Position numbers and translations under genes: made by a program. A stretch of 64,000 bases of DNA from Ischnura elegans (taxonomy: Eukaryota; Arthropoda; Insecta; Odonata; Coenagrionidae), in assembly GCF_921293095.1 (NCBI RefSeq), contig NC_060257.1:56332968-56396967 (forward strand), in the 5' to 3' direction. Under the pieces are notes generated by a model. It was given only the letters and a program-made list of their open reading frames with translations. It did not search any database and was not told the origin of the DNA. Of this stretch, positions 5,301 to 55,690 are shown in pieces; the stretch's first letter is position 1, and every line of letters starts with the position of its first letter.

Positions 5301-8300
5301 GCTATTCTAATCTATTGCTAATCGACAGATATTTGGTTTAAATACACTGGTAACACAGTAAGTTGACCCTGGATTCATGCTAAGACAGGGTAAGAGGGTC
5401 TAGTCCAGTGGCTGCAGTGATAGCCAGGCCACTGGACTAGACCGTTAATTAAAATAATAAACAAATAAATGCAAAAAAAACCTGAAAGAGGTATAAAAAT
5501 ATACCAAAATGTTGGCCAAAAATTTTGCGTTTAATTCTTAAAGAGCTACTCCAAGATACTAATCAACGTTTGAGGCTAAAGATAAATGTAGGTGGTATAA
5601 AAGTTGATAATAACAGTTCAGTTATTAGGAGAAAAATGGATATGGTAGTTAGGACATCAGGAAGAGAATTTTATTAGGTATGGACACATTCATAGACATG
5701 AATAGGAAAGAGCTGAGAAGAAGAATATTATGTAAGAGTATAAAGAAAAGACTTGTGAAGGGTCTGATGTGGAGTGTAGCACTTTATGTTGTGGAAACAT
5801 TGGCACTTAATGAGGGAGATTCGAAAAGACTGAAGTCTTTTGAAATATAGGTCAAGATACGATGGAGACAGAAGGTTTGGATGTTGGGAATACTGTGTGG
5901 AGAGGGCATACTTAAATCCATGTTGAAAAGAAAAATGTTAGGTAAGCAATGGAGGGATGGAAGAAATGAATAGGGTTTATTGATATATGTACGTATTGAA
6001 ATGGAGTAGCCATTATTTTGAATTGAAGAGAATGATCCAGTCAGGACTGGCTGAAGTAACTCGCAAAATGCTACATGGAAACCTACCTTAACTGGTAGAA
6101 TACTTTAATAATAATGAATGTTGTCCAAAAAGCCCAGTTGATCAGGCTAAGGAGTGGCAGGCAGGCCAAGATAGTCAGTTGGTGTGATGGGGTAGGGATG
6201 AAACATGCTTCAATTGTTCTTGTGTAATTTGATATTTTCCTTAGAAGACAATGATTTATGGTCCGTGTGATTTCGGAAAAAAAACAACAGAGGCACGGGC
6301 TGATGGACGGCCGAGGGTGGTTTTCTGAAATCTGTGGCGTAGTTATTTTTGATGTGGTTATTATCCCACGGCGCTAAAATTCCCTCGATGATTGTTCAAT
6401 CTCTTGGGAAGAGTCACTCTATGTGCCAGTCGTATTTTGCCTTTTTTATTTTCCACAGCTGAAATTCTTCTACGTAACCTCTGAGAGAGCTTTCAAACAA
6501 AATGGTTCATGAGCAGGATAAGAATCGTATGCGACGGCGCATTTGAAGAGAGAATCGGAACTCTTTCCACCAGCGGAAGACTTCAGATTCAGATCCGATG
6601 TCTTCTGCGACTTTGATCCAATGTATCTGATGAAGGGCAATATCCACGGGTATTTGGAAAGGCGTATCCAATCCAACCATCCCTATTAATAACTGATGTT
6701 AACAACCCGAAGTGCAAAAAGTGTTAAAAATGCTTGAAGCTATTTTCTCTAATTTTATTATGGGATAGCTATTTAGGGTTATGGATGTAATTCGGTTACT
6801 TCAGCACTGTAAAATGATCCCTTTTTCACAATTCCAGTTGTTTCAATCCCAGGGTGGTTGGCCATTTCCTGAATATCTTGGAGCTTGTGGCAGGCTAATT
6901 GCCGAAGAATATTGTGGGGAGCCCCTATCTGCTGTTGCATACAATTTAACGTGGGAGAAAAGGGCTCTTCTTGCATCACAAGCTCTGACAGCAGCTCATC
7001 GATTTACTCACGGAGATTCACTATTTAGACTGTATTTGGTGGACATTTCTCCAGATAATGTTGTTGTCATGGAAGATATCAAAGGGATTCATTTGAAATT
7101 TGTAGATTTAGAGGATGTAATTCTTGTGGACAAGAGGTTGCCAGAGACTGGTAAGTATTATGGGCAGTAAAAATATTAGTACATTTTATTTCAGTGTTGC
7201 ATATTGTCTAAATTTTAGTCGTTTCCTTAAGTTAATGATTTATTTGACTGCTTACTTTACCCACTGTGTCAAAAAGATGGGGACTCTCCTACTGGCCAAA
7301 CTATGTCTTTTACCCTTTCCCTTCTAACAATGAAAATATGCGGCAGGACCTTTCTTGATCTGGGGGACGAAAGCCGCAAATTTTCATCGAAGATTTTCCT
7401 ACGAAGGTGAACGAATGCCTAATATATATATACATTTCCTTACTCTCTCCCTTCTATGATGGTCCCTAGTTCCTGAAGTCTTAGTTTCAGGACCCAACAA
7501 AGCAGGACTTAGGCCGTGCCCTTGAAATCTGGGAGCAGGTATCCGGACCTCTTGTCTTATATTAGCCCTCTTTGTGGTTAGGGACTGCAGTCATACAATT
7601 GTTCATTTAGTCAGTTTTCGAAATAAATATTTGTTCCTTTCTCAAAAGTTATAAACAAAAAATTGAATTCTTTGTCTTTTGAGAAGTATTTACAATTTTT
7701 AAACGAAATTGTACGATGAATATTAACTTACATCTTGATTTCAGTATAGACATCAACATGGAAATTGTTGCTACATTAAATGCATTAATATTGACGGTAG
7801 AGCTTTGTTCGAAATTTTACAATTCTCAGAATAAAACGAGGAATTTCATTCAAAGTCTTCAATTTACATACAAGCAACAATTATCCATATTGCTAATTCA
7901 TACAAACAGAGCATGATTGACAGCGAACCAATGCCGCTGGTAGGGTTATAAACCGAGAAAGAAGGGAGCCCAACTACCCTCAGAGTCTGAGATAATGCAG
8001 AGTCCCTGCTAGGAAGGGTCAAAAAAGGTTTGTGCTGAGAGTATGTGATTATCCACGAGACCCTTCTTAACAAATGTCCTGCAAAAATGCTCCGTACAGA
8101 GGGGACCGAAGAGTCTCTTGGGGCTCATTCCAGCAGTCATGCTGAGGCAAAAACTCCAGCGTGTCGCGAAAGGGTTAAAGAACCAGTGAATCATGGGGCC
8201 TCTCAAAGAGACTATCTTGTATTCCCATTTTATAAATATTTGTTACTTATTTTTCGTCTTCTTATTTCTCTGCAGCTATTCCCATTAGGGGTCGATGTTT

Positions 8301-16525: not shown

Positions 16526-19500
16526 CTTGAAAGGAGAAATATTGAAAACAGATTTAATTCTCAGTCAGCCTTTACCTGGAAAGATCATACCGTATATGTC
16601 TGAATATAGTCCCCTCTTTTTTTCCAAAAATGTCCAAGGTAAAAGTAAAGGGGGGGACAATATTCAAATGCATTTTTTTAACCTTTCCTGAAGCCTCAAA
16701 ATGGGGGGGGACTATATTCAAAGGGGGACTATATTCGGAGAAATACGGTATTTATCCATAAATATAAAAACACAGTAATGTCGAAAAATTATGTGTATGG
16801 CGCATAATGATTAAATAACGGTGAGTCACTGGCAATGAATAAAAGCATATAAAAAGAGGCACTCATGTTGGAAAAATGGTTTTTGAAGCTTTCGAAGCCA
16901 ATAGTCTCTTTCTCAACACCTGGAAGAAGCTATTGGCTTTGAAAGCTCAGCACCTGAAAGAAGCTATTGGCTTCGAAAGGTCCTAAAACAATTTTTCCTG
17001 TGGGAGTGCCTCTTTTTATGTGTTTTTATTCAATGCTAGTGATTCATCATTGTTTTTATTATTAATATAAAAAATATATCTACTCTTTTGACCAAAATTT
17101 GATTGCGGAATCAACTGTGGTGTGCCCAGACGAAATACTACGTGGATTATCACATAAAATAAGTCGGGGCCGACTGTCTGGAAGGGTGACTTATCAGAAG
17201 TTAATTCTATTATGGGAGGTCCTTGATCAAACTGTGACCTCTCTGAATTAAGCAATCCCGTGTTGACAGTCAATGATTCAGTGTATGGCAGGGATAAGGT
17301 TGGGATGTGCAGGGTGTAATTCTCGCGATACCAAGAGCACTTACAGAAAAGAAATTCATTCATTCAACAAAATTTTACTGTGTCTATTCTAAAGCAACTC
17401 ATGAAAAAGTACAAATTCGTAGCAAAATCAAACCCTGATGAATAATAATTGAAAGTTTTGAGGTGTTAGTAACGATGAGAATGAAAATAAGATAATTAAT
17501 TTAAATATCAATAAATTGCAATAATTAACAATAAAATCAAAGTAACACTTCTTAATCAATTGTACCGTGAAGCGGACACTCATTTTAGATATATGATCAT
17601 AATTGACAGCAATTGAAGAAGATCCATGTCTTCTTTGGGATCTATGGAAGGTAAAGAAGTCCTTCCTGTTTTGCAGAAAACTTTTTTATTCTTCGCAAAT
17701 GTCACACTCTTAACTGAAGGGTCATTACACAGGGGCAGGATCAACTTAACTAAACCTGGTGGTCCCATGCAGTGGCGCAGCGAGGGAGGGGTTTTGGAGG
17801 ATAAAACCCCCCCCCCCCAGAGCTCACAGAAATTTTTAAGTCTAATCTATTTTACTTAATTGGATTAATATTACTTAAAGAATAGTGTGAGGATTAATAA
17901 AATATCCCTCAGAAGGCCGTAAAAATCACCATTTTGAACCGTTTATCTTAATTTTTTCTGGCGGAAGGCCTCTGCACCTTCCGCTAACTCTGGCGGGTAT
18001 GCAGTACCCCAAGCACCCCAGTATTAGTTGTGCCTGAAACCCCCCCTAGCCTTAATTCCTAGCTGCGCCCCTGGTCCCATGTAGATTCTGTTCCATGTGC
18101 TGAGGGGATTTGGGCTAGCTGCAGGCTCTCCTCTTGCTGCAGCCTCCTTCACGCTTCGGGGGATGCAGATCTGTGGCCCGGTTGCTCCTTCAATTTTCCC
18201 CTTGTGGCAAATATTAATGGGAATAGGAGCCCTGAATCCGGCAACCTCCGTCTCGAGCCACTTTCTTCCCCATTCATCTCTCAGTGATATGCACTCTGTC
18301 ACAAGGGCAGGTGCGCACTAGCACGGCCACGACCATGACCAGTGGCCCACGACCAGTTATAGCATTGCAACAAATGGAGCGACGCGCACTGTGCCAAGTC
18401 CGGCTCTTTGGTCGGACCCGAGTTGTCTGACCAAAATTTTTGAATTTGGTCGGCCCCGACTCAGCGGTCGTTGCGGCCAGAAATTACACACATTCTTATG
18501 GCGTGGCGCGCACTGACTCCGACTTCACTCCGATCCGACCAGCAAGTGGTGAATGTTTTGCTATTGTGGTTGTGGTTGTGGTCCTCCTTCTCGAGCCACT
18601 TTCTTCCCCTTTCATCTCTCAGTGATATGCACTCTGTCACAAGGGCAGGTGCGCACTAGCACGACCATGGCCACGACCATGACCAGTGGCCCACGACCAG
18701 TTATAGCATTGCAACAAATGGAGCGACGCGCACTAGGCCAAGTCCGGCTCTTTGGTCGAACCCGAGTTGTCTGACCAAAATTTTTGAATTTGGTCGGCCC
18801 CGACTCAGCGGTCGTTGCAGCCAGAAATTACACACATTCTTATGGCGTGGCGCGCACTGACTCCGACTTCACTCCGATCCGACCAGCAAGTGGTGAATGT
18901 TTTGCTATTGTGGTTGTGGTTGTGGTCCTCCTTCTCGAGCCACTTTCTTCCCCTTTCATCTCTCAGTGATATGCACTCTGTCACAAGGGCAGGTGCGCAC
19001 TAGCACGACCATGGCCACGACCATGACCAGTGGCCCACGACCAGTTATAGCATTGCAACAAATGGAGCGACGCGCACTAGGCCAAGTCCGGCTCTTTGGT
19101 CGAACCCGAGTTGTCTGACCAAAATTTTTGAATTTGGTCGGCCCCGACTCAGCGGTCGTTGCAGCCAGAAATTACACACATTCTTATGGCGTGGCGCGCA
19201 CTGACTCCGACTTCACTCCGATCCGACCAGCAAGTGGTGAATGTTTTGCTATTGTGGTTGTGGTTGTGGTCCTCCTTCTCGAGCCACTTTCTTCCCCTTT
19301 CATCTCTCAGTGATATGCACTCTGTCACAAGGGCAGGTGCGCACTAGCACGACCATGGCCACGACCATGACCAGTGGCCCACGACCAGTTATAGCATTGC
19401 AACAAATGGAGCGACGCGCACTAGGCCAAGTCCGGCTCTTTGGTCGAACCCGAGTTGTCTGACCAAAATTTTTGAATTTGGTCGGCCCCGACTCAGCGGT

Positions 19501-22500
19501 CGTTGCAGCCAGAAATTACACACATTCTTATGGCGTGGCGCGCACTGACTCCGACTTCACTCCGATCCGACCAGCAAGTGGTGAATGTTTTGCTATTGTG
19601 GTTGTGGTTGTGGTCCTCCTTCTCGAGCCACTTTCTTCCCCTTTCATCTCTCAGTGATATGCACTCTGTCACAAGGGCAGGTGCGCACTAGCACGACCAT
19701 GGCCACGACCATGACCAGTGGCCCACGACCAGTTATAGCATTGCAACAAATGGAGCGACGCGCACTAGGCCAAGTCCGGCTCTTTGGTCGAACCCGAGTT
19801 GTCTGACCAAAATTTTTGAATTTGGTCGGCCCCGACTCAGCGGTCGTTGCAGCCAGAAATTACACACATTCTTATGGCGTGGCGCGCACTGACTCCGACT
19901 TCACTCCGATCCGACCAGCAAGTGGTGAATGTTTTGCTATTGTGGTTGTGGTTGTGGTCCTCCTTCTCGAGCCACTTTCTTCCCCTTTCATCTCTCAGTG
20001 ATATGCACTCTGTCACAAGGGCAGGTGCGCACTAGCACGACCATGGCCACGACCATGACCAGTGGCCCACGACCAGTTATAGCATTGCAACAAATGGAGC
20101 GACGCGCACTAGGCCAAGTCCGGCTCTTTGGTCGAACCCGAGTTGTCTGACCAAAATTTTTGAATTTGGTCGGCCCCGACTCAGCGGTCGTTGCAGCCAG
20201 AAATTACACACATTCTTATGGCGTGGCGCGCACTGACTCCGACTTCACTCCGATCCGACCAGCAAGTGGTGAATGTTTTGCTATTGTGGTTGTGGTTGTG
20301 GTCCTCCTTCTCGAGCCACTTTCTTCCCCTTTCATCTCTCAGTGATATGCACTCTGTCACAAGGGCAGGTGCGCACTAGCACGACCATGGCCACGACCAT
20401 GACCAGTGGCCCACGACCAGTTATAGCATTGCAACAAATGGAGCGACGCGCACTAGGCCAAGTCCGGCTCTTTGGTCGAACCCGAGTTGTCTGACCAAAA
20501 TTTTTGAATTTGGTCGGCCCCGACTCAGCGGTCGTTGCAGCCAGAAATTACACACATTCTTATGGCGTGGCGCGCACTGACTCCGACTTCACTCCGATCC
20601 GACCAGCAAGTGGTGAATGTTTTGCTATTGTGGTTGTGGTTGTGGTCCTCCTTCTCGAGCCACTTTCTTCCCCTTTCATCTCTCAGTGATATGCACTCTG
20701 TCACAAGGGCAGGTGCGCACTAGCACGACCATGGCCACGACCATGACCAGTGGCCCACGACCAGTTATAGCATTGCAACAAATGGAGCGACGCGCACTAG
20801 GCCAAGTCCGGCTCTTTGGTCGAACCCGAGTTGTCTGACCAAAATTTTTGAATTTGGTCGGCCCCGACTCAGCGGTCGTTGCAGCCAGAAATTACACACA
20901 TTCTTATGGCGTGGCGCGCACTGACTCCGACTTCACTCCGATCCGACCAGCAAGTGGTGAATGTTTTGCTATTGTGGTTGTGGTTGTGGTCCTCCTTCTC
21001 GAGCCACTTTCTTCCCCTTTCATCTCTCAGTGATATGCACTCTGTCACAAGGGCAGGTGCGCACTAGCACGACCATGGCCACGACCATGACCAGTGGCCC
21101 ACGACCAGTTATAGCATTGCAACAAATGGAGCGACGCGCACTAGGCCAAGTCCGGCTCTTTGGTCGAACCCGAGTTGTCTGACCAAAATTTTTGAATTTG
21201 GTCGGCCCCGACTCAGCGGTCGTTGCAGCCAGAAATTACACACATTCTTATGGCGTGGCGCGCACTGACTCCGACTTCACTCCGATCCGACCAGCAAGTG
21301 GTGAATGTTTTGCTATTGTGGTTGTGGTTGTGGTCCTCCTTCTCGAGCCACTTTCTTCCCCTTTCATCTCTCAGTGATATGCACTCTGTCACAAGGGCAG
21401 GTGCGCACTAGCACGACCATGGCCACGACCATGACCAGTGGCCCACGACCAGTTATAGCATTGCAACAAATGGAGCGACGCGCACTAGGCCAAGTCCGGC
21501 TCTTTGGTCGAACCCGAGTTGTCTGACCAAAATTTTTGAATTTGGTCGGCCCCGACTCAGCGGTCGTTGCAGCCAGAAATTACACACATTCTTATGGCGT
21601 GGCGCGCACTGACTCCGACTTCACTCCGATCCGACCAGCAAGTGGTGAATGTTTTGCTATTGTGGTTGTGGTTGTGGTCCTCCTTCTCGAGCCACTTTCT
21701 TCCCCTTTCATCTCTCAGTGATATGCACTCTGTCACAAGGGCAGGTGCGCACTAGCACGACCATGGCCACGACCATGACCAGTGGCCCACGACCAGTTAT
21801 AGCATTGCAACAAATGGAGCGACGCGCACTAGGCCAAGTCCGGCTCTTTGGTCGAACCCGAGTTGTCTGACCAAAATTTTTGAATTTGGTCGGCCCCGAC
21901 TCAGCGGTCGTTGCAGCCAGAAATTACACACATTCTTATGGCGTGGCGCGCACTGACTCCGACTTCACTCCGATCCGACCAGCAAGTGGTGAATGTTTTG
22001 CTATTGTGGTTGTGGTTGTGGTCGTGCTCTGGTCGGAAGGTGTGCGACAGAGATCTGTTATGGTCATGGCCGTGGTCGTGGTCGTGCTAGTGCGCGCCTG
22101 CCCTAATGTTCTGTCGTGCTGCTTCCCAAATTTGGTCTTTCAAAAATAATGCCCTTCTCTGGTCGCGTCACACGTCTTATATACCCGTCCGCGATAAATT
22201 CCCCTCTTCAGTGAATGGGTATGGAGAAAAAAAGGGGGGGAGACACTCGATGCCTGTGAGCTGGCCTGCTTGGCTCGATATCACCTCCTATCACATAACC
22301 GCATTCATCTTCACTTTAACTCTAATATGGACAACATATTTTTCTGACGTAATCAGACAAGGTGAGTCTGTTGGACTCATTTAACATGTTGCGTACCGGG
22401 GTATTTAAATTCCTAGGAATGCCGATTTGGAAATATGTGCTTATTAGGGTGTAATGCCTTTGGTTTAAACATGGTTAAAAAGCTAATGTTTAGAATGTAA

Positions 22501-25500
22501 CTTTACCCAATCAAATGTTATGATGCATCAATTCATTATGAATAACAAACAACAACTGAAAACGTACTAATGAATACGTATTGTACGCTTTAAAATTGTT
22601 TAGGTTGACGCGCCTAAATGATGAGAATCTTCGTCATCCGTCCGGAACGTTCGGGAAAAAAATGACGAGAATTCTCGCCATCCGTATGCAACGTGTAAAC
22701 TTATGCTTTTCATTTACTCTATTTAGCAATGAAAAATATTAATTTTCACATCACTTTGTATATATTGTATGCTAAAGAATCATTTGACATAAAATGTATT
22801 ATTTTTTGTTACATTAAAGTTTTACATTACTTATTAATTTCACACATAGTCAAACAGCAAGTCCAGTAGACTCTCTTGACCAATTATTTCTGTTTTCACA
22901 AAATAAAAAGATAAAATATTTATCATCACATGTACATTACATGTAAGCTTAGAAGAAAGTAAGAAACATCATGAGTCCCATGGACTCACATAGCCTGGAT
23001 TTGTAGGAATTAAGGGAAACATTTTTTTTCTAAGGTATTTTAATTTTGAAAGAAGGTACTTTAATTTTGAACTCTAATTTATAGGAAATATACAATTAGT
23101 GGAAGTAAAAAATTTATGCCACGCTGACATTTCAATAACATAATAAAAATCTCAAAAATGTGATGCAATGAGTCGGAGAGATTCACCTTGTCCGTATTAG
23201 GGTTAAACTAAGCATTCACTCAGCCACGCATATACTCACTGGTCAAGGTGAGGAGAGGGAGGGGAGAAGGGTGTGGTGAAAGGGCGTACATGACTGAGTA
23301 TGATGGACCGGGCCAGGACTGGCATAATATACTGGCTGGAGAAGTTGTGTCTTGAAATTTTGACTCTGGATAACTGTTGCCAGATATGTCTTTGATAGAT
23401 CACGATCTCTAGCAAGCAAGGCATTTGAAGTCATGAGTTGTCGAGAGCATCCAGCTATGGGGCAAACTCGTGGCCAATAAGGTGCTTGGCTATAAGTTTC
23501 TGTAGTTTAAAAATGGTGCGTTTTTAACTTAAACATCATTGGTGAGTTTGGTTTCAACTCGTAGTGGCTATCCAGAGTTAAAATTTCGTGACATAATTTT
23601 TCTCCACCCTGTATATACTGTGATCAATTTTTGGTCAAAAGAGTATATATATATTTTATATTCATGTGTACATATTTGCGCCTCTGAGTAAGGAAAAGAA
23701 AATGCACTCGGTACGTTCCACATGATACTTTTTCCTACAATGGTGTCTTCTATATAATATCATTATTACCGTGTATTCATGGCAACACATAGGTATTTCC
23801 TCGACAAACTACTGCTGAAACTATTGGCGAAAATAGTTCAACCTGACTTTGTGTTTCCCTAGGGAAGCTAATTTGTCTGAGAAGAAAATATTTCTTGCAT
23901 TCATTTGTCAAAAATTCAGTTTGCAGCAATATTATTCATGTATGTGATAGATGTTGGCTCTTTATAATGACTCATTCCTATCGTGAAATTAAAGTTATTT
24001 TGTCGATACCTCATCTTGTCATTATTTGTCAGTCGCCTGACTTATATTTTGTGAATGTGCCTATTTATTTACATGTTGATGATTGTTATGGTTAGGTAGA
24101 ATAGTCAATGAATAATTAGTGTTGTGATGCACATCGCCTCAGTGTAAGCATTGCACCGTCAGATGAACTGGATATTTTATGTTGTTGATCATTAATGTTA
24201 TTCCTGTACTGCATCTGGTAAGATTCAAATGCAGTAAATGGTGGAAAAAGTATTTGAAATGCAAGTTTATTCTGCTCTGTGCAGTGCTTTAGCCACTTGC
24301 ATAAAATAAATAGTGCATAAAATTATGTTCATTAGTTTTCAAATCATAAAAAAGCACAGCCGTACTATGAAGTTTCTCGTTAGCAAACTATGGCTACAGT
24401 TTTTATGTTACTCTCAGGGGAAGTCTGGCTATATTGACTGAGTAGTGATTTCTTGGCCTAGTTCTGTACATCAATATAGGGCATGGGTGTAGCCAGGGAA
24501 TTTGGCTGGGGTAAGGGGAGCCTGTACCCCTGAGGGATTCTAGGGGGGTGACCCCACTTAAAGAGGGACTGTCTCTTCCCAGGAAATTTTTCAAATTTAA
24601 CCTTCTCAGAACTTAAGCCTAATGTTTGATGAGATTTTTGTATGATACTGAAATTTGTGAGTTTAAAGCGAACACCTCTATGTGTTCTATGTCCGGGCCT
24701 GCTCTCCGGCTGTGGCGCTGTGCGCACGATTTGGACTGCTTGTGGCATCATATGCTCAGCAGTCCAGCAACATCTTGTCCGGTAGTGTCCGAAAATATCC
24801 ACAGGGAAGAATGACGCCTCGATAGCCTTAACTGGCTAAAGCACTCGACTGGAAATCGGGGGATCCGGGTTCGGATCCTGGTCAAGGCGAATGATTTTTT
24901 CTCTATGGATCTTTCGCATGAAATTTGTGATTTTTCGATTTGTAAAATGTTTCAGGGGGCCACAAGCCTTCTGTGGGCACAGGTGGGGTCCCCTCTGTGC
25001 CTCTCCTAGCTATGATAGTTTTATAGAGCCGCAAATTTTTACTCAGCTTAGTGTTCCTAATTTTGTCAGATGGGTCCCCTTGTCCACGGTACATTTTTGA
25101 TCGTGAAATATTCTCATTTTGAGTTTTCCATTGATGCTAGTCATTTGTTGAAATGAGTGAAAGTTTACCTTAAATAACAGTCTGCTCCATTTCTTGCATT
25201 TTTTGATGAGTACTATCGTGAGTAAACCCTTATAATGAAATCAGTGGTCAATGTAAGTAACACAGTTGATGTGAAGATGTTGCATTGATGTGAATTGTCA
25301 TCCAAGAAATTTTGATGTTTATAAAATTTGTCTATGTATTGCTTCGCACTGAAATAACAAAAAATATATATAATTTAATGGGAATTTTTGCATGTCTTTT
25401 GGAAGTAATTGTATTTTTTTAATGATTTACGAAGAATGGGTATTGAAATGACAATAATTGAGAAAAGTTGCAAACGATGATCTTTTCTATTGTGAGGGTT

Positions 25501-28500: not shown

Positions 28501-31500
28501 CTGTGGATTTTGTGCTGTATTATTTTGTTTTTATTAAAAAATCTGATGTTTTCCGTGAGATTGTGCCGAATATCTCAGTGTTGGAATTAGGTGCAGTTTT
28601 CCGCAAAAATCAATTTTTATTTGAAACAGGGTCGAAAAATAGGTCTCATTATTTCAAAACATACTCATTTTAAAATTGGTTGTGTGAGGTGAGATGTGGA
28701 GAAACCTTTCCATCAAGAATTGCAGGTTCTACTGAAATATTTTATTAGTCAGATGACATGGTTCGAGGTTGACAATTATGTAACCGCATGGAAACAAGTC
28801 AAATCATTAATACAGATTTTTTTAAAAAGTGGAACCTGCAAAGGACCTTTCAATCACATTGTTTTGTTGAGTATCTATTATAATTGGTTGGGCTAGGTTG
28901 TGTGAGGAATTCTGATAGGGAGAGAAGGCTTTGAGGATCTCTTAATTTGTCCTACTCACCTCTTGGTTGCTCCGCTGATGTGGATTTTCCCTGGGACACC
29001 ATGGGATTCCATTCTCGAGGCAGTGTTGACCGTGTCCCCAAAGAGGCAGTATCGAGGCATCTTCAAACCCACACAACCAGCTACGACTGGGCCACTGTGT
29101 AATCCCACTCGAATCTGTGGAGTAGAGTGAATCAGTTCTATTCCAAAAAAAATTCTTTTTAAATTCTTTGGTTTCAGACTTGACTTTGTGGAAGTTAATG
29201 GTGATTCAGTGAAACAAAACTGTTGTGCGAAAGATCCACAGAGAAAAAATCATTCGCCTTGACCGGGATTCGAACCCAGATCCCCCGATTTCCGGTCGAG
29301 TACTTTAGCCAGTTAAGCTACCGAGGCGTCATTTTGCACGATTGTGCATTGCGGGTGACTCCCGTAAAAGTTATCGCCGCGGCTAGTCCCGGTATACTTT
29401 AAACCAAACAAAACTGTTTTTGAATCCGCTGAGTTATTTTGGCACAAGTAGTTTCAATGCATAGGCAATATCCTCAGGTACAAATATCCTCATAATATCT
29501 ACCAACAACTCACAATGAATGAATGGGGTGGTTTCCTATTGTTTTTTTATTGCCTAAATCGAAAGATTATTACTCCTGGAGTACGCATTTCACACTTTAA
29601 GATTTTTAAATGACGATATCTATTTTTTGCAATTAAATGAAAAGTGAAAAGTTTCAAGCACGCGAAAATCCGATGGCTAAGTATGAATGCTGGGAAAACC
29701 CCGTGTGAGTAATTGTGGTTCCCACTGTCACTGTGTGAGGTGACTGTGGGAGGAGGGTTTGTGCTTCGCTGCGATGCAGGCTTCTATCAGGTAGCAGAGC
29801 ATTCTGCTAGCGGGTAGGGCTTGGCTTAAGTAAGGATTAAATACCTTATCAAACTAAGGGAACTTTCCGACCATAGGCAGTTTTAATAGGTGATTATTAA
29901 GACATGTTTTCCTGAGCTCTGTGCCTCATGCATGCATGCATTGTTAATCTCAGACGATGTAAAACTCCTATCTACTCGTATAGAAACTATGTCCCTGTGA
30001 CGTCACGTGGAGTGGAATCGCATGGGCGCCAATCTGGCCTTTTTCAAATGCAGTTAAAATTGACCATAGACATTCGCCTAAACTAGGATTTCTAAAACCA
30101 AATGAATTGTTTATTATGAATACACTAATGGTGGGTAACGAATCGCAATCAATGCCTTTCATTTTCTTTGATGAAGGAAACTACCCTATTAACTTAAGCA
30201 TAATGGAAACGCTATATTTAACTGATTAAATTGTTTTTGATTTTCCAGTGCGTGCGAATTGAAAACAAAATTCACTAACTGCTCAAGCTCCACTCCAAAG
30301 AAAATATCTGTGTGCATGCCTGAAAGCACATTTTATGTGTTTGAATTCTTTAGATGTCATGGCAAAAAATCATTGAAATAAGCCAAAGAGATAAATAACA
30401 TTTAACTTTTAACCTGCTCCAATGGTCTATAAGCGATCGCCTTAGCAGACTGCTGCCATCGTCAATTGACGATTTTTATTTATTAATATATTTTGAAATT
30501 ATTTTTGGCATTATTGTAATACATGTCCTAAAGTTCATCATTTGAAGTAAAATCGGCAGAAAATTAGTCAAATATTTTTGAAACTTTTTTTCATTCAGTA
30601 AAAAGTTATAACTAATATAATTATGCAAAAATAAAAAAATATTATAATTTTTTGCGCCTGTGGGGAGCTCTATTTCAGCTTAATTGCGCAGTTAAAGGGT
30701 TAAAGTTAGTGGCATGCCAATTTACCCCGTTTTTCTGAATTCATTCAGATTTCAGTAATAGCTTGGCCTAATGCATTGACTTCCTCATCTGTGTAACTGA
30801 TATTATTATTACTACTATGTTTTGTAAAAAAAACTTTGGTTATTTGGGAGCTGCACTTTAGTAATTACCTCAATTGGTAAACCACTGACTGGGCTGAGCA
30901 CTTTACCGGAGACCTGTACCATCCCGACTGCCTGATTTGCCACTTGAACTGCATGATTGGGCGAAGGACTAGGAACGCCTCCCACCACCATGTATGCATC
31001 TCCAATAGTCTCCACCTTTAAAATAAAGAAACATTTTTGAAAGTTTATAGTACATTTTCCTTAGTCAACAATCCTAAGAATGGTTGAATGCAGCTCTCCA
31101 TTCAGCTAACATTTTCATAGTGAAGTACAGTAGATTGCGGTTAATTGGGACATATCGGGACTTGTGCACTTTGCCCCAATTAAGCGGCTGCCCCAATTAG
31201 GCGAACTATCCTGTGTATGGGCATAAACAAACAGTGAAATGATAGAAAGAAGACTAAAGAATGCCTATAATGCAACATAAATTTATTAAACTATTAATTT
31301 GACTGAAAAATCAGCGAGTTTAGTTATTCTATTATCATTTTTAAGAATTATAACATATTTGTTAAAAATATTTTTCACAGCCTCGAGCTACGCTGAATGA
31401 ATATCTTTTACTAAGTCCTATTAAAGAAAAGTCCTATCCTCTTGCGGATAGTATAACAACAAGAGCTTTCAAAATAGGGCCAAAGTAGGAGCATTTGTGA

Positions 31501-34500
31501 AAAAAAGAGTAAATCAAGGGAGGAAAATATAAATAAATAGTATTCTGAAAACAAAAAATTTTCATTTCGTCGCAGGTATAGAATTTATGTCGCCGACTCA
31601 TGGCCCAATAAAGCGGCATATTGTCCCAATTAAGCGGAGAATACTCTGGGATATTCCTCTATTGGGTTCTGTTCTTCAAGATCTGCCCCAATTAAGCGGC
31701 TGCCCCGAGTAACCGGTGGACCCATTAAACGGAATCTACTGTATCTCTTTTCTCTTACAACCTTTATAACCTGTCTTATGTAACACATTCGAGGTCGTCC
31801 CTTGCCCTTCTTCCCTTCCACCTGTCCTTCTGCAATTGTTTTCATCAAGCCATCATGCCTAATAATGTGGCCAACTAAGTTGTCCTGTCTTCTCCTAAAG
31901 GTTTTTAGACGACTTCTCTTTTCTCCCACTCTTCTTAGCACTTCCTCATTGCTTACTCAGTCAATACATTTTATCGTAGTACATTAGATCCAATTTGGCC
32001 TGACTCTTGGAAGATACATGAAAACATTTGCAAAAAAAGTCAATGATGGAAGAACTAATTTTGTTCACATTCACCTTGATTGGGGTCATTCATACAATTC
32101 ATTAAAAGAATTCAGTAGATGGAAGGGAAAGGTAAGCTATGGAGGTAAAGAGATATTTTTGAAGTTGTTTTGGGTTTCCCACCGTTTGACGCATTCCCAC
32201 ATTGTAGGAAACACGAGTTACAAACTTAAACGGTCTGTTGCCCAGGCATTGCTCATCCCTGGTGAACGCACCACCGATGGTAGAGATGGGTGTGGTTCCC
32301 CAAAACCTTGCTTGAAAGATAGTTTTTTTTAAAGGGCACCAGGTGCATGCATAGGATGCACCACCAAGTGAAAGTACATCACAGTCTCTTTTGGCAAGAT
32401 GGATTTGAACAGACAAAATTAATTTCCATAAAGATTTAATGATACTTTACAGTCATTCTGAGATTAACAAAAATTTTCACCATTCAAAATTTTGCCTTCA
32501 TTCAGGTAGTTTCCTCTAGCTTATCACACACATATGGGTCTCACTCTCCGACAACATTAACTTGCAACACTTTGTAAGATAAAAAAAATTAATAAAGTAT
32601 AACTCCTGTCATTTTACGAAGAAAATTCTGCTGCTGGCTCCACATACTTAGGAGAGGAAGAAAACCCTCTCTACTGCCACATGGTGGAGTACGCCTTACG
32701 AGAGAAAAGAGACCCTTGGCCAGAAAAAGAACCCTAATTGGGTGAATTGGGAGACACAGTGGAGAGGACCTACTGAGTCAGTGGCTAGAGTGCAAGAGCA
32801 TGCTTGTACCCGCACGTTGCATCGTCGGGAGAGATCACAGGAGGGGAGGAGTGGTGGGAGAGGAGGGGAGGGGTGAGGGGAGTTGAATGCCAAAACCTGT
32901 TTTTGTGTGCGCTCTGTAAATCGCGGAAATACCCCGGAACTGAAATTTTTCCGTCAGCTGATCAGCTAGGCACAGATGTCGCGGTGGAAACCGTGACAAC
33001 AGGGTGAGGCTCTCCATCTCTGCCGACGTTTTGATGGCCGTGTCGTCCATCGTCATCAGGGCTTGTCTATGAGTTGAGTGATCCGACTTACATAGTTTGG
33101 ACCCCTGATCAGGTGACTCGTGACTGGTCCGCCTTTTCCCGCCTTTTTTTCCCAGGCCTCTCTGATGTATTCAAGCACTGGTTTCCAGGAGTTGCTTAGG
33201 GCATAAGCAGCATGCATGGTGTTAGTCTCCATTCCAATTTCACTTGCTTCCTTGGTCAGTCTTTCCCAGAATCTGTCCTCATGGCAAAGGACCTTTGTGT
33301 TCTCCCAGCGAATGGCATGGTCGTGTGATATGCTGTGCTCAGCCACAGTGGATTTTTCTGGTTGGCCGAGCCTGAGATGCCACTGGTGTTCTTACATCCT
33401 GGTAGCGATAGTCCTGCCTGTCTCACTGACATACACCCGGCCACATTCGCATGGAATCTGGTAGACCCCAGTTGTCATAAGGCCGCAGGAATCCTTGGCC
33501 ATCATAAGTTGGTTTCTAAGTTTTGCAGGCAGGCAAAAATATGCTTTGATATTGTGCCTCTTAAGTATTCTTGCTTTCTGCATGAAACGGTAGGGACGAA
33601 AGGTAGACCAGCAATGGCTATTGGTTTTTGACCTTCTTACTCGGTGGCGGTGTTGTAGTTGGCGAAGGCCCTTTTCAGGGCTCTGGAAATGTCTCTTTTG
33701 ATTAAGATATATTCCTCATAAAATTGTTCTCTCATAACAAGAAGATACCTGAATGTCTGAGCAACTGAACATGGGAAGAATTTCAAAATGAAGAGAGGAA
33801 TGGCAGTTCCCGACTCATCTCCTGGCAGAAGTGCATCAGGCAGATTTCATCCTGGGAATTGTGCCACTCTCCTTTCCTTGAACATCGGCAATTAATCCCA
33901 AACATGGGCATTGATGCATGAAGGGTATGTCTCCCACACCCTCACCCTTACTTCACCATAGACCAACGCTCAGTTTCATTTCAAGTAGCCCTTCCTTAAG
34001 TACAGTTAACTTTATCAAACTGCATTGTTGCATATCATTGCAATGCACTAATTGTTTTGAGACCTTGGATTTTAATTCAAGTTTCAATTGTTAAGTCTAT
34101 GCCTTTAAAAAATTGTCTGCATTTATCCGTATTTTAAAGTTTTGGAAGCTGTCATGACTTGCAATTCTCCTTTCACTAGTTTATAAAAATAGATTTTTAT
34201 TAGAATTCTTGGATACCATTAGTTACTTTTGCATGATCGTAGGTGCAGCTTTTTTCATGAAGTGAGGAAGGAAAGCTTTGTAGTTTGAAAAGGCTCTAGT
34301 AAGGTATGTTTTAACTCACCTTGTAGACGTCATTTTTTTCTGTGAGTGCATCAAATTCTGTGTAAAGAGCATTCAGCATGTTGATTATCTGCAGTGGTGT
34401 GCTGTTGGAAGCTATAACAGTGAAGGTGACGATGTCGCTGAACAGAACTTTATCACCCAAGACAGCAAATATGTGGGAAAGTAGAATAAAATACACTTAA

Positions 34501-37500
34501 GATAAATACAAACCTTATAAATGGGCAGTAATAAAAAGTCTTGTCATTGGTATTACTTAGGATTGCTATGTAATAAAGGTTTTCCCAAAAAGCCCAGCTT
34601 GACTTTTTAAAATCATAACTATTGAGCATTTAATACATGACTGGGTGATAAACACTCGCTTAATTACCGTATGAATTTGAATATGATATAGGTATAGATA
34701 GAAATAGATATATCAGGCAAACAGAAGACAGTATAATTCCCTTCTTTGGCTGGGTGAGGTAGCAACTCCATGTATAGTAAGTTTAGTTGTAAATATTTAA
34801 AACTTTCATTCAATATTTGCAAAACATAAGCAATTGAAATTGGGTAATTTTTTTAGACACTGTATTTCATGAGTGTAGTTTAATGTCATCCTTTCTAAAA
34901 GAATACATTCAAACAAAGTATAATTACTTTTCTTATTGACTATGCTACAAGATTTTGCCCATTCTTACTCTGAGGATTTTGCCTTCTCAGTTTCTTATTA
35001 TTTGGTATTTCGAGAAAGATTTCTTTGGTTAAAATTGGAAAACTTATATTTTTTTTTCAAAATATTTTTTGAAAAACTTTCAAAAATTGATTTTGGTATG
35101 CATTGACTCTCATTTGTGTTAAAAAACTGAATGAGTGTCATTAAATTGGCTTATGGAGCAATAAAATGGTCACTCTTTGTGGTCAAGTGAGTTAATCTTC
35201 AATAGAAACAACCTTGCAAAGGTGCTTATTATAAACATATTCAATTATGTATATTCATATGCTCGTCAGTTGAAAAGCTATTGCTACAATAGGAAATTCT
35301 TGTATTCATTTACTTCTAGAATTTCTATAAAATTAAATGAAAATTGTTTTAATTTTAAGTGAAAAAGTTACAGTTGAAAAGGACTGAATTTTACTCACTT
35401 GTGCACTCTGAAAAGGATTTTTGAACCCTTTCTCCTTTTTGGAGTAGGACGGCTACTTCCCGGGGCATCATTGAGTACAGTAGGCTGTCTGCCTTCTGCT
35501 TCTCCACCCTAAGAGCCTCCCATGTTGTTTTCAGTTCCATAGTAGTTTCCTCGAGACGAGTCCTTGGGAATAAAAATGTACTGATAATCAAAAACAGGAA
35601 TGACCTAAATGGAATCACCCAATATGGTTACTTTTTGTGTAATTTTTATTCAATATATTTTCTTTTAAAGAAAAATAATTTTACTCATGAAATAGTCTTC
35701 AATTGAAGTCACCATTTTGGTGTTTGATACTTTAAAAGCACCTTTATAACTGTTGGAAATTTTTTGTGATGATTACTACTTATTGACTTCTTACATTTTA
35801 GAGCCTGGCTATTCAATAGAATATGAATTGAGTTAGTCAGCACACTTATAAATATCAATACACAAAAATACCGTAATAGTTGAGCCTCCACAGTGTCGCT
35901 TGATGAATCATGCATTGGACTATCCATGTATGATCTATGATCTCTCAAAAAGGAACAATCTCATTTGGAAACCGTTGCTCTAAAGAAAATGATATTTAAT
36001 CTCTTTTGCTGGATTTAGGAAACATGAAAATTGTGACAGTGTGTTTTAAAGTTTAATCTCATGGAATTCTGACAAATTAATAAAGTATGGTTAACTGTCA
36101 ATTTTTCTTAATTTAATGTTACTATTAGTTTCATCTCATGATTAGTCTTCAGGTGAAGGAGATAATACCTTATGGTAACACAAAATGCATTGAAACCTGT
36201 CGTGAGACTAAACTCTCTCAAAAATTGAAAGTAATTTCTACTTTATTTAATGTGATAGCTATGTTCCAGAAATATCCTACTCACATGAGGTCAAATTCAG
36301 TGCTTCTTTGATGCTTGAGGAGTACCAGTTCCCTGGTTGAGTCGTACATTGGCACGTCGGACAGGCGCATTGACTTCTCGATCAGCTCAGATAAATTGCT
36401 CAAAAGTGGTGTGCCCACGAATATCATGAGGTCACTTTCCTTGTCATCCGAAGACTCCTCTTCCATTGGATAAATCCCGCCTAAGATGAAATGGGAAAGG
36501 GTGTGGGATGAAGCAATTATTATTACAGGGTGGCCACACTTCAGATCAAAAGGCATGGAATGTCTGGTAAAGCGACAAAAAAGTACGGAAAAATGACATA
36601 ATTGCAATAAAATTCTATTGAAGATTTTTCCTTGTCCTCTTATGCATTGGCATTTCTTGGATAATTTAGCATCCTATTCTCAGCATTTCTTTCAGAAGCT
36701 TCTCCATATGAGTTTAAATGCATTTTAGTATGTCAATTTTGCATAATTTATTTTAAGATTAATGTTTCATATCTTTTAACCATTATTGTAAACTATATAG
36801 ATGCATATTTGGTGAGGTATATGCTATGAAACATTTTGGAAAATTGCAAATATCTCAAAAGTGGGAAAATCAGGTTAAATCATCTTGATGTTTGAGTGTT
36901 CTGCTCATTTCATGAATTTAGGCTAACCTATATGGATTTTTAAGGGTTTCTAATCACAAGAGCGGGAGTATTAGGAGAGGTTTTTGCAGCGATGAAATCT
37001 CTCTACTTGAGAACCACCAACTTACACTTGTTTTGACATAAAAATGGTGGTTGACTGTGAAGAGTATTAAAAGGGACATGAATGACATAACATATCTAAG
37101 GAACAGAGTTATGCAATTCCATTTTACGGTGATTGCCTAGCCCAGTTAGAGGATGTTGTCATACTTCAAAGGTGGTGGTGGTTCCCATACAAGGACTACT
37201 TCAGAAAACTATAGTTTCAAACCCTTAATTTGTGACACTTTCATTACATGGTTTCAAAGCAGCAAAATATGGCTCAAAGTGTGCAGAGTCCCTATATTTT
37301 ATTGAGTATCAATGATAATGGTTGACCTTAGAAAGGAGATACATCCATGAATGAAAAAGAATCCTTATGGCATTCCATATGGTGCTCAATTTTAATGGAA
37401 TTATTGTTGAAATTTGAATTTGATTTTAGAATTTATGGAAAATTAGTGGTGGATTTTTTTGGATTAGTTTTCTTTTCCACAGGCCATAAAAAGTTAGAGG

Positions 37501-40500
37501 CTATATTGTCAATTCGTAAGTTTGAACAGGTGACAGGAAGGTCCTCACATCCCTTGACTTCAAAAACTTATGCGGGAGACAAAATGATGAAGTGTAGGCA
37601 TGACATTTGGGGTAACTTGAGTGGCTTTGTTTAAAATATTGTCATTGATCATGTACCTTCAGTTCAGTTTTGATAAGACATCAAAACATTTTCACCTAAA
37701 TTTATTAGTGCATGACACCTTTCTTTGTATTATACAACATTCTTGATTGCCATGAGTTTCTCTTTCTTTGGAACTTCCTTTTTTTTTGACGAACTTGCAG
37801 AAAGCCTGTGTAATTGGGTGAGTTGTAAAATTTCCACCTCATTAAGATGCAAATAAATCAAGTTACCCTAAAGTCCTTAGCTCGCACCAATAAATATTTT
37901 CAACATCAAAGATAGTAATATATCTTTGGTGATATTGAGGGAGAGGAGAGAGATTTCTCTCATGCAAAGCGAAGGGCATATGTTGGTGGTTGGTGCGTAA
38001 CGTTTTATCTTTACCTTTTTAATTACCTTTTAAAATTAGCACTTTTTCTCCCAGCTGTCCTTTCCGACTTGCACGGCTGACAGTCTCCACTGCTCCCTCT
38101 GTGGCTGTCACTTTCACAATTTCTTTTCCTTCACTCTCACTGCCTTCTCCTCTGATCCATGTCCGTTCCCTTCTACCCTTGGAATCCCCATCCCGTCTCA
38201 CTCCCTCTTCTCCACCAGCCTTGAGCCTCACCAGCCCTTTCCGACCCTTAAAACTGCCCTCTTTGTCCTCCGTACCAACAGGAACTTTGTGACCCCTTGG
38301 CAGGACCACAGGGGCTGCAGAAGTGATTTTCTGTAGCATCCTTCCCGTGCTGATGCTTCGTTTTCCCCTCCGGTTAATTTGTTCGGGGTTCGCCAAGGCT
38401 CTGTCTTGGCCCCTCAGTTTTTCAAACTCATCCGTTTCCCTTATCTTTCCGAGGTGTTCCTTGGTTCTTCTTCCAACAGCGTAGCCGTCTATAACTTGAG
38501 GGTATTCGGTGATTGTCCTGCTCCTTGTTGATCGCTTGTTACCCGTAGTTTTCTTGACTAAAATCAATTCCTCGTCTGGATCTTCCTGTTTGGCGGCCAG
38601 CTGAAACACCAAGTCCTTGAATCTCTTAAGGTTGTAGGGAGTGAGGGGTACTAGTGGCCAGACCAGCTCAAAAACGGCATCCATACGTGGGGAAGACAGG
38701 AGTTGCGGGTAGAACTGAGTCAATCTGCTTCCAGCCTGGACAACGGTGAGGGTATTACTGTGTGTAAGGTAGAAAGATGGCGTGTTAGAAATTAGGATCA
38801 GTAGAAATTAGGATCAGTAGAGTAGATCTCTTAAGTGCTTTAGGGGGGCTTCAGGGTGATTGTAAAATCACTAAGTTTCGAAATACTATCGGGCTTTTTG
38901 TGATCTTTAAAAGACAGGAACAGAATTCTCTCCATTTACGTTACACCAACCATTTTCCAGTTATAAATATTTCTACTTGGAATTTGATGAAATGATACTT
39001 TTTCGTGGATTTGAGAAAATAAACAGGCATTGAATGTTGGGTCCTTGAGCGATTTATATGTGATTTTCGATCAGTCTAATGTTTTAAACTCATAGCAGTA
39101 CTCTTATATTACACGCAGCTCTCATTAAGAGGCTGAAATCGACTATCGTGAAAAATTTCTCCGAAAAAACTCAATACAACATTTTTTTATACACCCAATA
39201 AAAGTTTTTGAGTTTGTTAGAAGTGTCACTAATCCTTGGGGCTCCTCAATTTTCACGAATAAAAATGCTCAATGCTTCATTTTTTTGTGTTAGACGATTT
39301 TTAGTATCCGTGGCGTTATTTACGATTTTTCCGCAATTTAGGATGGCGTTCGGTCCTTACCACCACGTTCAAAAACTGCGAGTGATAATGAGATCGGGAA
39401 TAAGCGTCACAGTTACCCGTCCTCCATTTGTTCGGGTCATCCTTTGGATACCTTTAGGATAAGTTCGGAAGTTGGGAGAGGGGGAAAGCATTGTTCCAAG
39501 TTTCATATTCCGTAATTGGGAATATTTCTCGCATACATTGGGATACTTGCGATACAGCCCTCATAGGTGACAGATGAAGGCCGGTTTAAATTAGAAGATA
39601 TCGGCAATTATCAGCAGGGAGCACTTAGATTCCAAAACCCGTGATTCAATGGTAGCGTTTGTAGACAAAATAGCCAGATAATTGGCTTGGGTTTTGGTCG
39701 ATTTTGATGTAACGGGAAAATTAGTGTGATACTTCGGAACGCGCGTGTCATAGTCATTTTTTCATGCCTTTTCTTCCATGCTTCGTTAGCTTTAACCGTG
39801 AATAAGACGTCAACAGAAGAATACGTCGAGGTATAAATTATAGCGCTGATAACATGATGAATATTGAAATTTGAGAATGATTAACTTTAAGTATAAACCA
39901 TCCTTGAAAGTAAAAGCGAAGATGTATCCTGTAGGTTATGCAGCAAATATTTTTTGGTGAATTGAGTATTGCATATATTATAAAGGGCGTGGGAGATGAA
40001 GGCGCTCGAGCGAATCCCCTCTTTTTTTCGGGACTCAATGGCCGGTTTAGTTCGTGTTCGTACACACATCGGTAACATAAATGTAATTGCCGACTCACGA
40101 GAAATGGGCGATAATTTTCGATATTTCTTTTTCTAAATTATGAGGAAATGTCTGAATGGGGAAGATTTCTTCGTGATAACTTATCTTTGCCTCTCACCGA
40201 CAATGAAAACCGATTTCGTGTGCGAGTGAACGACCCTTCCGCAATCGATCCTCCTTAGGATGGTAGGGTTTTGTTTGTCGATACGTCGGGAGAAGATGAA
40301 GTAACTTACTCGGGAGATTACCCGAGAAACCTTAATCTAAAATCATATATCGGGGAAATCTAAAACAATTTGCCTTCTTCGGCCACCCCTGAACCAGTAT
40401 TTTTAACCAATTATTTGTTTTTCAAGGTCCGACAGGTCGTGAAATTAAAACCAAGGAGACAATAGAATTAAGCTTTGCGTGACCTTGTTTTTGCAGTATC

Positions 40501-49500: not shown

Positions 49501-52500
49501 TCAGAGATATATTAAGTAATATCGGAAGATGAACGCTCTGTCAGGAAATTGATAACTTGGATTGTACAAATGCCGAGAAATTAATGTATGGCCCAACCAG
49601 ATTGCAAGAAAATTTATTTATTTATTTCGAAAAATTTAATCTGGGGAATTAATGTATACTAAAAATGACTAATTAATTATTATTGTTGCTACTTTGGTTG
49701 TATGTATTATTCCTCAGTTCATTTATTTTTGTTATTATAGCTTTACTTACATAGTATATGCGCAGATGACTCGATGAGTTTTAGTGTTTCTTCGTCTGGA
49801 TATGAGCGGAATGTCAAATAGGACTTGTTACCGTATCCCGCGTCCACCCTGATAATGAGAGGGAATCAGACCATGAGGGAAGGCAATCGTAGGAAGAAGT
49901 TTTCGTATTTTATATTGAATTGAGGTCAAAGCCTATTTCAGAGGGAATTGTATCATTTAAATATCCTAATAAATGAAAGAAAAATGAATTGAGCACCTAA
50001 GTAAAGTAGCCTTTTGAACTTCTCATTCTGATACCGTTAATCCTGGAACATGTAGAGAGCGCAACAATGAAAAATCCTAAACAGAAACTTTCAGCCAAGT
50101 GAGAGTTGTGTCCATAACATTTTGTACTTACAATATTTTTTTCCATTCTTCTTCTCCAAATTTGGTGATCACCATGTCCTGAAGACAAATATGAATCAGC
50201 CCGTACTGTGGAAAAAATTCGATGTAATTTTAAACTTTTAATCGGTATAGAATCTGAGTTTTTCCCGGCGTATGCTCTGCAGGAATATTTCTCGGGTTTC
50301 CCACCGGGTGTCGTATCGGGTTGTAGTTCCCAACGTTTCCATGACTAAGTACGTCATCGTCATCAGGGGTTAATGACTGACCTTAACCCCTGATGACGAT
50401 GACGGACTTAGTCATGGAAACGTTGGGAACTACAACCCGATACGACACCCGGTGGGAAACCCGAGAAATATTCCTTTTAATCGGTAATTTATATAAAATG
50501 GATTGTTTTAAAGGATAATATATCTTTTTTAAAGTACAGTACTGCAAAATTTCATTCTATTTCAACTTTGTCAAGACGCATTTCACTATTGAAAGAGCAC
50601 GTCCAGGCAATGATTTTAACAAACAATTTGCGATTTCCTTGTTTTGACATTATTCATAAATTCCATCACATTGCACCGAGAGCATTAATTGAGAATTTAT
50701 ATTAATATTTCATTCATTCTGTGTTGAGAGTTACACTCCATCCATATTCAATGTATTTAGGGATGATTTATGATTGAAGTGACCTCATCACATGTATTTA
50801 GGAATGATTTATGATTGAAGTGACATCATCACCAATAATAGTATCGAAGATAACAATAAAGTTGTGCTCGAACCGGAATCGAATAATATTCAATTTTCCA
50901 ATTAAGTTTCCTCTGTTTTCTAATCGTTGGTTTGAAAGATCAGAATACCTCAAAAGCCTTTGTTAAAAGTTATTGGTTTATCTTTCAATAAAATCGCCAC
51001 ATATACCATTAAACCGAATGGACTAGCTATTATAATCAGATGGTAGTCGTGTTCACGCAGATGTAACATCAAGTATCATAGGAGAAATCAGAACTCGATT
51101 TATTATTTCGAGGATGAGAGATCATCGTGCGAAAATAATATTTTTGCGTAAAGTGAAAATCAGTAAACAATACCAAAAGACGGAGAAATGTAAACTATAT
51201 AAATTGTAGAAGGAAGAAAGCTTTGAAGCCCATCGTTTATACGTGGAACTATTAGCCAGAAGAATTCCAGTATCTAGGCAGTAGAATCGCAAGGAGATTT
51301 AAGCATCATCCATCAGTCCTTTTGAGGTCTTCTGATCAATAATTGTCTCAGCATGTTCAGGAAATTTTCAAGAGTAAAATGCAAATTTTTTGTTAAGAGA
51401 AGCACTGATATTGAAAGGTGTGAAGGGGATGGATTTCATAAAAATGAAGGCGTTTGATGAGCGGAGGGAGATTTGGAGTGCGAGGTCGAACAAAATAGCA
51501 AGGGAATAAGGAAACAGGACTCGGCGTCAGGATCAAAGACAATGGAGGTGAAGGTGGACAACAGAGGAATCTTTATAGGAAAATTGAATATTATTCGATT
51601 CCGGTTCGAGCACATCTTTACCTTCGATACAATTGGTGATGATGTCACTTCAATCATAAATCATTCCTAAATACATTAACTACGGATGGAGTGTAACTCA
51701 CAACACAGAATAAATGAAATATTAATAGATAAATTCTCAAGGAATGCTCTCGGTACAAAAAAACTTAGAAGTGGTAGAACACTGCATTATGTCAAACCAA
51801 AGACTTTCACTATCCACCATGTGTTTAGATTAAATTTCGAAACTTTCCAGATTTGCTACCTTGCCACACTCTTGTAAAAGCTTAGGAGAAAATCTGATTA
51901 AGGACCTTCTATTGAATGGTTGGTCAATTCTGACTTTTTGGGTATCCTTCCTTATGGAAATTAGACATTGCTAATGAATGCGGGGGCAAGAAGAAAGTTT
52001 GGTGGCCTTTTGAAATGAAGTGCTATTTTTCTTAATCCTATGAAATTCTTGAATAAAAGAAGGACAACCTTATTGAAGTACAAAATATTATAGTTGGAGA
52101 ATTGTACGTGGAAATAGCACGACAGCCAACGATTGTATAATTGGGGACAAAAGCTTTTGGCTAATGTCGTTGTTGTGGTCGCTTAAAAAATCAGCAAAGA
52201 ATGTAAAGCATATCAGTATTGTGAGTTGAATATATTATTCAATGACAGAGAATAGAGCAGTATTTTAATGCAAGGGCCAAAAATCGATTTCACATGGTCC
52301 GGAAGGTTTCAATGCTCCACCTTATTTTACCACCTAAACAATAAATTTAATTTCAAAGCACAATAGTATTTATTCGTTAAAAAGCTCATTAATTAATTCA
52401 AATTTTGATATTGTTTATTTTTGACGAGTGTGTCGATATTTGGTTCTCGATACAATATTTTCTTTGGCCTATAGGGGCCGTAAGATATAAGCCGGCGGCC

Positions 52501-55369: not shown

Positions 55370-55560
55370 AAACGGAAGCGTTGAGGAAGTGTTGGGGAAG
55401 CGTCGGACGGAGTGTTCGGGAAGTTGCGGGCGAGTGTTGAGGTAGCGTTGAGGAAGTGTCGCGGAAGTGTCCGGGAAGCAGATTATGGCCCACTTGGAAC
55501 GCTTCCGGAAGCGTTTCGGAAGTGTTCGGGAAGTGTTCAGGAAGTGTCCATCCGACACCT
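55370..55560 (+). repeat. Degenerate minisatellite block 1
   Basis: About 15 imperfect repeats of a 10-12 bp unit, GGAAGTGTTCGG or GGAAGCGTTGAG, without a fixed higher period. Because 12 is a multiple of three, several frames stay open; I do not read them as coding. Confidence 0.75.
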
Positions 55561-55690
55561 GACGCTGCCACATTGCAAAAAAAGATTTCCATATGGAAAA
55601 ATAAAATTTTAATTGTAAATCATGGTAATAATAATGAACAGCAGGTTTTTTTCAAATGAAAGGTAAAAATTTATGAAAAAAAATTCCGCG

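Follow-up and report, generated by a model that had tools for sequence, protein, structure and literature searches.

Many satellite DNAs have been traced to transposons, and the relevant passages of one review (PMC9659126) name several derived from miniature inverted-repeat transposable elements (MITEs), namely Xstir, miDNA4, HindIII/CvA and D1100. Sections of a paper by Satovic-Vuksic et al. 2025 (PMC12628747) summarize the models for such repeats and propose composite monomers formed from nested, decayed transposons ("graveyards"), and the portion of the Tetris literature dealing with the TIR-220 repeats (PMC4079207) reports a unit number that varies between alleles. Transposon-derived satellites are mostly recognized once their founding join and the order of events have become blurred. 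The locus presented here is a tandem array of 11 head-to-tail units, each joining part of a MITE to neighboring DNA, in a 64,000-nucleotide stretch of Ischnura elegans (contig NC_060257.1, positions 56,332,968 to 56,396,967; the whole stretch is referred to as the window). Its layers can be ordered relative to each other, preserving a stratigraphy at a single locus. The array probably originated by MITE insertion, one join, divergence of the resulting copies and homology-driven amplification. MITE-derived satellites and composite monomers have already been described, and this array is a clear further example.

The array occupies positions 18245-22023 of the window, ~3.8 kb in total, and with the MITE end that follows it comprises these features:

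18245..18582, + strand: unit 1, 338 bp, set apart from units 2-11 by 6 substitutions and a 6-bp indel
18245..18304, + strand: host-repeat flank of unit 1, the first of its copies, with the mutated left target duplication CAA as its last 3 bp (18302-18304)
18305..18341, + strand: left terminal inverted repeat of unit 1, 37 bp, 6 bp below the 43 bp of units 2-11
18583..22023, + strand: units 2-11, 0 differences in 3441 bp
21739..22103, + strand: sole full-length MITE at the locus, GGGCAGG...CCTGCCC, 365 bp, putatively PIF/Harbinger-like
22004..22023, + strand: three TTGTGG hexamers and the MITE-side breakpoint (after 22022 or 22023, a 1-bp ambiguity)
22024..22103, + strand: right 80 bp of the MITE, single at the locus, with the right inverted repeat at 22061-22103
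22104..22106, + strand: right target-site duplication TAA, assigned from the empty-site alignment and the TWA duplications of other copies

Units 2-11 are each 344 bp long and begin at 344-bp intervals, the first at 18583; no difference separates units 2-10, and unit 11 is identical through 22023. Each unit consists of 60 bp of flank, in which the mutated 3-bp target duplication is included, followed by 284 bp of the 365-bp MITE. The left-end pattern was found 11 times on the + strand of the window and once on the - strand (12 matches, versus a mean of 0.02 in 100 shuffles), and the left end of units 2-11 forms 44-bp inverted repeats with the right end that are 91% complementary. With the array masked, a sensitive blastn search detected no further MITE or flank copy in the window (best E 0.10), and neither direct nor inverted similarity between the left and right outer flanks was significant. 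A sequence-only reading of this DNA had described a 344-bp array of 11 units at 18245..22104, in which the left MITE end starts the MITE part of every unit and the right end occurs once, after unit 11. The count of ends is borne out (11 copies versus 1), as is the start coordinate, but the MITE stops at 22103, and the target duplication begins with 22104; likewise, the 344-bp period describes units 2-11 but not unit 1. The flank is carried by each unit as proposed, at 60 bp with the mutated target duplication rather than 58 bp, and the near identity of units 2-11 proved to be complete. The supposed single copy upstream is in fact the flank of unit 1 itself, which runs without a break into the DNA before it.

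The unit number and the exactness of the ten copies are taken from the assembly. That the true units are fewer or more variable, making both the number and the perfect identity spurious, is very unlikely: a consensus assembler may produce ten exact copies, but the contigs bearing the fetched copies are 94-171 Mb long and the window contains no N, suggesting an assembly from long reads, and both unit 1 and the right end stand clearly apart.

The assembly from which the window comes (1,722,721,009 bases in 110 contigs) was searched for the MITE, the flank and the junction. Besides the 11 units, at least 39 dispersed MITE matches and 3 short inverted-repeat matches were detected (40 of 186 candidates scored). 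The flank is absent from 39/39 of the dispersed matches, all of which begin at query position 59 or later, with 0/39 covering positions 1-58. Comparison of these 39 and one more copy placed both MITE ends in 36 of the 40, with lengths of 302-378 bp. The left end reads GGGCAGG in 27 of the 36 two-ended copies and a single-base variant of it in most others; identical 3-bp flanks are present in 19/36, all 19 being TTA or TAA, as compared with a permuted mean of 9.8 and a maximum of 17 (2000 permutations). An internal 32-mer of the MITE (at most 3 mismatches) matched 159 places in the assembly, array units included, and TTA plus the MITE end (at most 1 mismatch) matched 108, with 0 matches in the control for either pattern. 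Ten of the 100 listed 32-mer matches are units 2-11, and, on inspection of the listing, none of the other 90 lies less than 10 kb from another. PIF/Harbinger (Tourist-like) MITEs are short, non-coding and present in many copies, with TWA target duplications and GGG/GGC-type inverted-repeat ends. The MITE is placed in PIF/Harbinger because of its 3-bp TWA duplications and GGGCAGG-type ends, and is, by these sequence criteria, a dispersed non-coding family of apparently PIF/Harbinger-like type.

The assembly also yielded matches to the DDE_Tnp_4 transposase (150 scored of 2144 candidates), the identical search being positive in 1/14 control genomes. The transposases at thirty of these loci (L077-L106) are of Harbinger type, and many have open reading frames 300-500 aa long; the MITE inverted repeat (at most 4 substitutions) was found in 0/30 of the fetched transposase loci of ~3.5 kb. 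The array MITE differs from its family consensus, which was made from copies chosen for their likeness to the unit, at 21/350 compared positions (identity 0.940; lower in 1/40 copies). Other assignments were tried and rejected. The YAGGG-like end prompted consideration of a hAT MITE, a class with an 8-bp target-site duplication, but no such duplication is present at the locus (at most 1 mismatch) and other copies carry TWA. A 6-bp TCTGTC duplication had a chance of 0.075 in shuffles and gave way to the TWA duplications and the alignment of empty sites. Another copy of the MITE, at L076:575-1868 (on C9), was considered as a second array and rejected: it is a MITE with an internal insert of ~960 bp, in which other short repeats, tandem ones of 26-35 bp, are abundant.

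The DNA flanking the MITE belongs to an older dispersed repeat, of which the locus retains an interrupted copy:

17112..23331, no strand assigned: copy of the ~1.35-kb host repeat, split by the array, by a hAT-like MITE and by a ~883-bp insert

The left flank (18082-18303) has 13 matches beyond the locus at 77-87% identity, 11 of which reach query position 213-217 and two of which are partial. In blastn comparisons with seven paralogues (L015-L021), the host repeat is 78-88% identical left of the array and 80-100% identical for 22107-22319, and its far-right piece, from 23203 on, is 71-82% identical in 5/7. The seven loci of the first comparison show the left flank running on into the right flank from 22107-22109. 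Flank searches indicated 16 loci, and 15 paralogous regions were fetched; an empty insertion site is present in 14/15, two of which (L067 and L068) resemble one duplicated copy with equal identity, and the remaining region (L071) stops short of the insertion point. As read by eye from the alignment, the target position is TAG in 12 of the 14 and GAG in two, the corresponding bases at the locus itself being CAA (left) and TAA (right). The imperfect inverted ends of the host repeat suggest a resemblance to a DNA transposon. Because the flank is part of this older repeat and the rest of the unit is MITE, the monomer is, as judged from the alignments, a composite of two nested repeats, 60 bp of old repeat and 284 bp of MITE.

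Helitrons and Helentrons are rolling-circle elements with TC...CTRR ends that have neither target duplications nor long inverted repeats, and differ in this from the array MITE. The many left ends and one right end seen here would also be produced if the repeat were internal to a transposon that is larger or replicates by rolling circle, like the Helitrons, whose arrays can combine many 5' ends with a single 3' end; the right end reads CTAA, then T. This explanation is scarcely credible, as it is contradicted by the 44-bp inverted repeats, the TWA duplications and the empty sites; in addition, the flank is missing from the 39 other MITE matches, and the unit starts with CCTCC, not TC.

Within the host repeat, 171 bp left of the array, lies a hAT-like MITE (CAGTGGCGCAGC...GCGCCCCTG) at 17770-18073 with a perfect 8-bp target duplication, GTCCCATG; the ~883-bp insert right of the array is located at 22320-23202. 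A 134-aa open frame in the host repeat at L020:582-983 (- strand) is found also in L021 and partly in the window, and the L020/L021 frame had no Pfam match above the cut-off (best E 0.12). A coding exon in the flank was rejected: the 136-aa minus-strand frame in question runs across the hAT-like MITE, has no match in PDB or Pfam, and is unlike every listed frame of at least 130 aa in the seven paralogues, and is hence taken as a chance frame.

One identical 60-nt junction is present at 10/10 unit boundaries, and a 26-nt junction pattern (at most 3 mismatches) gave 10 matches in the assembly, all in this array (control 0). Because the same junction occurs at all 10 boundaries and nowhere else in the assembly, the simplest reading would be a single founding join, copied locally at one locus. 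The parents of the junction overlap by 1 bp, and the chance of an overlap of at least 1 bp is ~0.44. The CCTCC match suggested earlier for the junction does not represent homology there, CCTCC being the start of the flank where the MITE reads CGTGC. Neither breakpoint coincides with a MITE end, and transposase cutting at the ends would therefore not be the direct cause of the join. Three TTGTGG hexamers precede the MITE-side break, and folding of the MITE strand is stronger than that of its shuffles (z -6.8), making fork stalling and template switching plausible; end joining plausibly fits the founding join equally well.

The 6 substitutions in 338 bp that separate unit 1 from units 2-11 amount to a divergence of 1.8% between the two copies; they were polarized with the dispersed copies (host-repeat paralogues and MITE copies) as outgroup. 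Units 2-11 are ancestral at unit positions 6 (12/12 paralogues with a base there), 28 (11/13), 153 (36/40 MITE copies; 3 share the base of unit 1) and 154 (38/40), and derived at 177 (G in 37/40 copies) and 237 (G in 38/40), giving unit 1 four derived bases and the right-hand copy two. Since each carries derived bases, both lineages would have changed after the duplication, and since the two private bases of the right-hand copy occur in units 2-11, this copy would have been the source of the burst. Had burst and split been of equal age, all 6 changes would be expected to separate unit 1 from the other units with a probability of ~2e-5; the 95% upper bound of burst age is ~0.1 of the split age under a star-like model with a single clock, presuming that unit 1 is not a recombinant allele. 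The insertion would be older still than the duplication, because the MITE is 6% from its consensus and the left target duplication is mutated. The order thus looks, from these substitutions, to have been an old insertion, a later duplication and a recent burst from the right-hand copy.

The left edge could have acquired its differences in another way. Were two haplotypes involved, an array produced recently in one event would have received the flank and MITE start of a diverged allele at its left edge by crossover or conversion. The derived bases on both branches, the restriction of the differences to the left edge and the complete agreement over the final 106 bp of the unit (chance 0.10) are as expected of such an exchange. 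That agreement is not significant, however, and an extra exchange is needed, leaving this a rather unlikely alternative.

Under the preferred account of an old insertion and a later join, a non-coding PIF/Harbinger-type MITE inserted at a TAA site in the older ~1.35-kb dispersed repeat, a step directly visible at the locus. One non-homologous join with a 1-bp overlap would then have connected a point 80 bp before the right end of the MITE to one 60 bp before its left end, by end joining or template switching, yielding a tandem duplication of the flank and left MITE part; the join and its uniqueness in the assembly are themselves observed. The two copies diverged, unit 1 gaining 4 derived bases and the right-hand copy 2 according to the polarization. 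The right-hand copy would then have been amplified to 10 identical units through homology-driven copying, for which the 344 bp of homology most likely served unequal sister-strand exchange or break-induced repair. The array would thus be a by-product of repair, with no function implied.

Amplification required homology of unit length, and exchange, break-induced repair and rolling-circle copying give indistinguishable patterns here. All ten units would have been supplied at once if the right-hand copy had given rise to a 344-bp extrachromosomal circle that underwent rolling-circle copying and returned by homology to the locus it came from; this agrees with the absence of differences over 3441 bp and with one junction throughout that occurs nowhere else in the assembly, and sections of PMC12628747 and PMC4079207 present rolling-circle amplification as a model for tandem repeats derived from transposons. 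Unequal exchange would leave an identical pattern, however, and a second insertion was not found elsewhere in the assembly; the circle is considered unlikely.

Several observations weigh against the account of insertion, join and homology-driven amplification. Identical 3-bp flanks are lacking in 17/36 two-ended copies, and the left duplication at the locus is CAA; the copies behind the family consensus were chosen for their likeness to the unit; and the 6-bp indel sits in a hexamer tract that is variable among copies and cannot be polarized. Homogenization by exchange is expected to leave both edge units diverged, and the diverged edge unit occurs only on the left. The divergence of unit 1 could be allelic rather than old if haplotypes are mixed, and the exact identity of the ten units could partly reflect assembly consensus.

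Much of the sequence-only reading survives in this account. A single MITE insertion plus flank as the origin is supported by MITEs that lack the flank (0/39 with it), by empty sites in 14/15 paralogues and by a join confined to the 10 boundaries, and the flank, which might have been part of a full-length transposon elsewhere, is found in 0/39 dispersed MITE matches. The genome searches it had proposed returned the junction only at the array's 10 boundaries and, for the MITE, a dispersed family with both ends in 36/40 copies. Its claim of a recent expansion holds in part: the amplification is recent (0 differences in 3441 bp), whereas the insertion looks old at 6% from the consensus and the duplication younger. 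A unique host flank is not supported, as the flank belongs to the older dispersed repeat. On the whole that reading is mostly right, and the layers prove to be more finely resolved than it had proposed.

Elsewhere in the window, a FAM69/PIP49_C kinase exon is located at 6769-7170 (+ strand) and guanylate cyclase exons (HNOBA and catalytic domains) at 28956-38807 (- strand). Minus-strand open reading frames at 33056-33715 had no Pfam match but are reminiscent of the GIY-YIG part of Penelope-like elements; short repeats related to this region lie near 12634, 15163, 33023 and 50254. A near-perfect palindrome at 50281-50475 has 93-nt arms that are 99% complementary around a 9-nt loop, and a degenerate GGAAGTGTT-like tandem repeat region with periods of 11, 22 and 83 bp extends from 55374 to 56483.

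Because the layers can be ordered, models of satellite origin can be compared at one locus: double insertion, element-internal repeats, rolling circle, and repair-made duplication followed by exchange. The locus supports a repair-made duplication that included neighboring DNA. Double insertion is disfavored because the right end is present only in the last unit, and the locus argues against repeats carried by the element itself. Unit number is expected to vary between individuals and could be tracked. It is possible, and suggested here tentatively, that the locus displays a composite monomer at its founding, with target repeat, transposon, empty sites, join, ancestral pair and burst all readable; a tandem duplication might then stay dormant as two copies long after the insertion, until rapid amplification of one of them, perhaps via a circle.

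Measured against satellites, the locus offers a single 3.8-kb array of 11 units, and the junction occurs 10 times, all here; the high abundance in many arrays that is typical of a satellite was not found, the junction being confined to this array in the assembly. Searches of other collections gave 0 matches in viral_contigs, none in plasmids and 5 chance 17-mer matches in genome_contigs. The earlier view of an insertion becoming a satellite is therefore upheld for a seed but not for a satellite family, because the array is confined to one locus. In the accounts available in PMC9659126, the MITE provides the monomer sequence of MITE-derived satellites, as it does here; as described in part of PMC12628747, however, Xstir comes from MITE-internal sequence and miDNA4 from a repeat within the MITE, whereas the present unit runs from flank into MITE and is found at one locus. 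The Helitron arrays of Xiong et al., as described in PMC12628747, are alike in having many copies of one end and a single other end. The Tetris TIR-220 repeats of Drosophila virilis, in the portion of PMC4079207 concerned with them, are similar in that small expansions of transposon sequence appear as an early satellite stage, but the repeat there lies inside a foldback element and amounts to 610 repeats in 69 contigs. The "graveyard" monomers as outlined in PMC12628747 likewise comprise pieces of more than one transposable element, nested in one place and then made tandem; that proposal concerns short, degraded stretches in heterochromatin, whereas each of the two pieces can still be recognized in the present unit, the empty sites and the join are kept, and gene exons lie in the same window.

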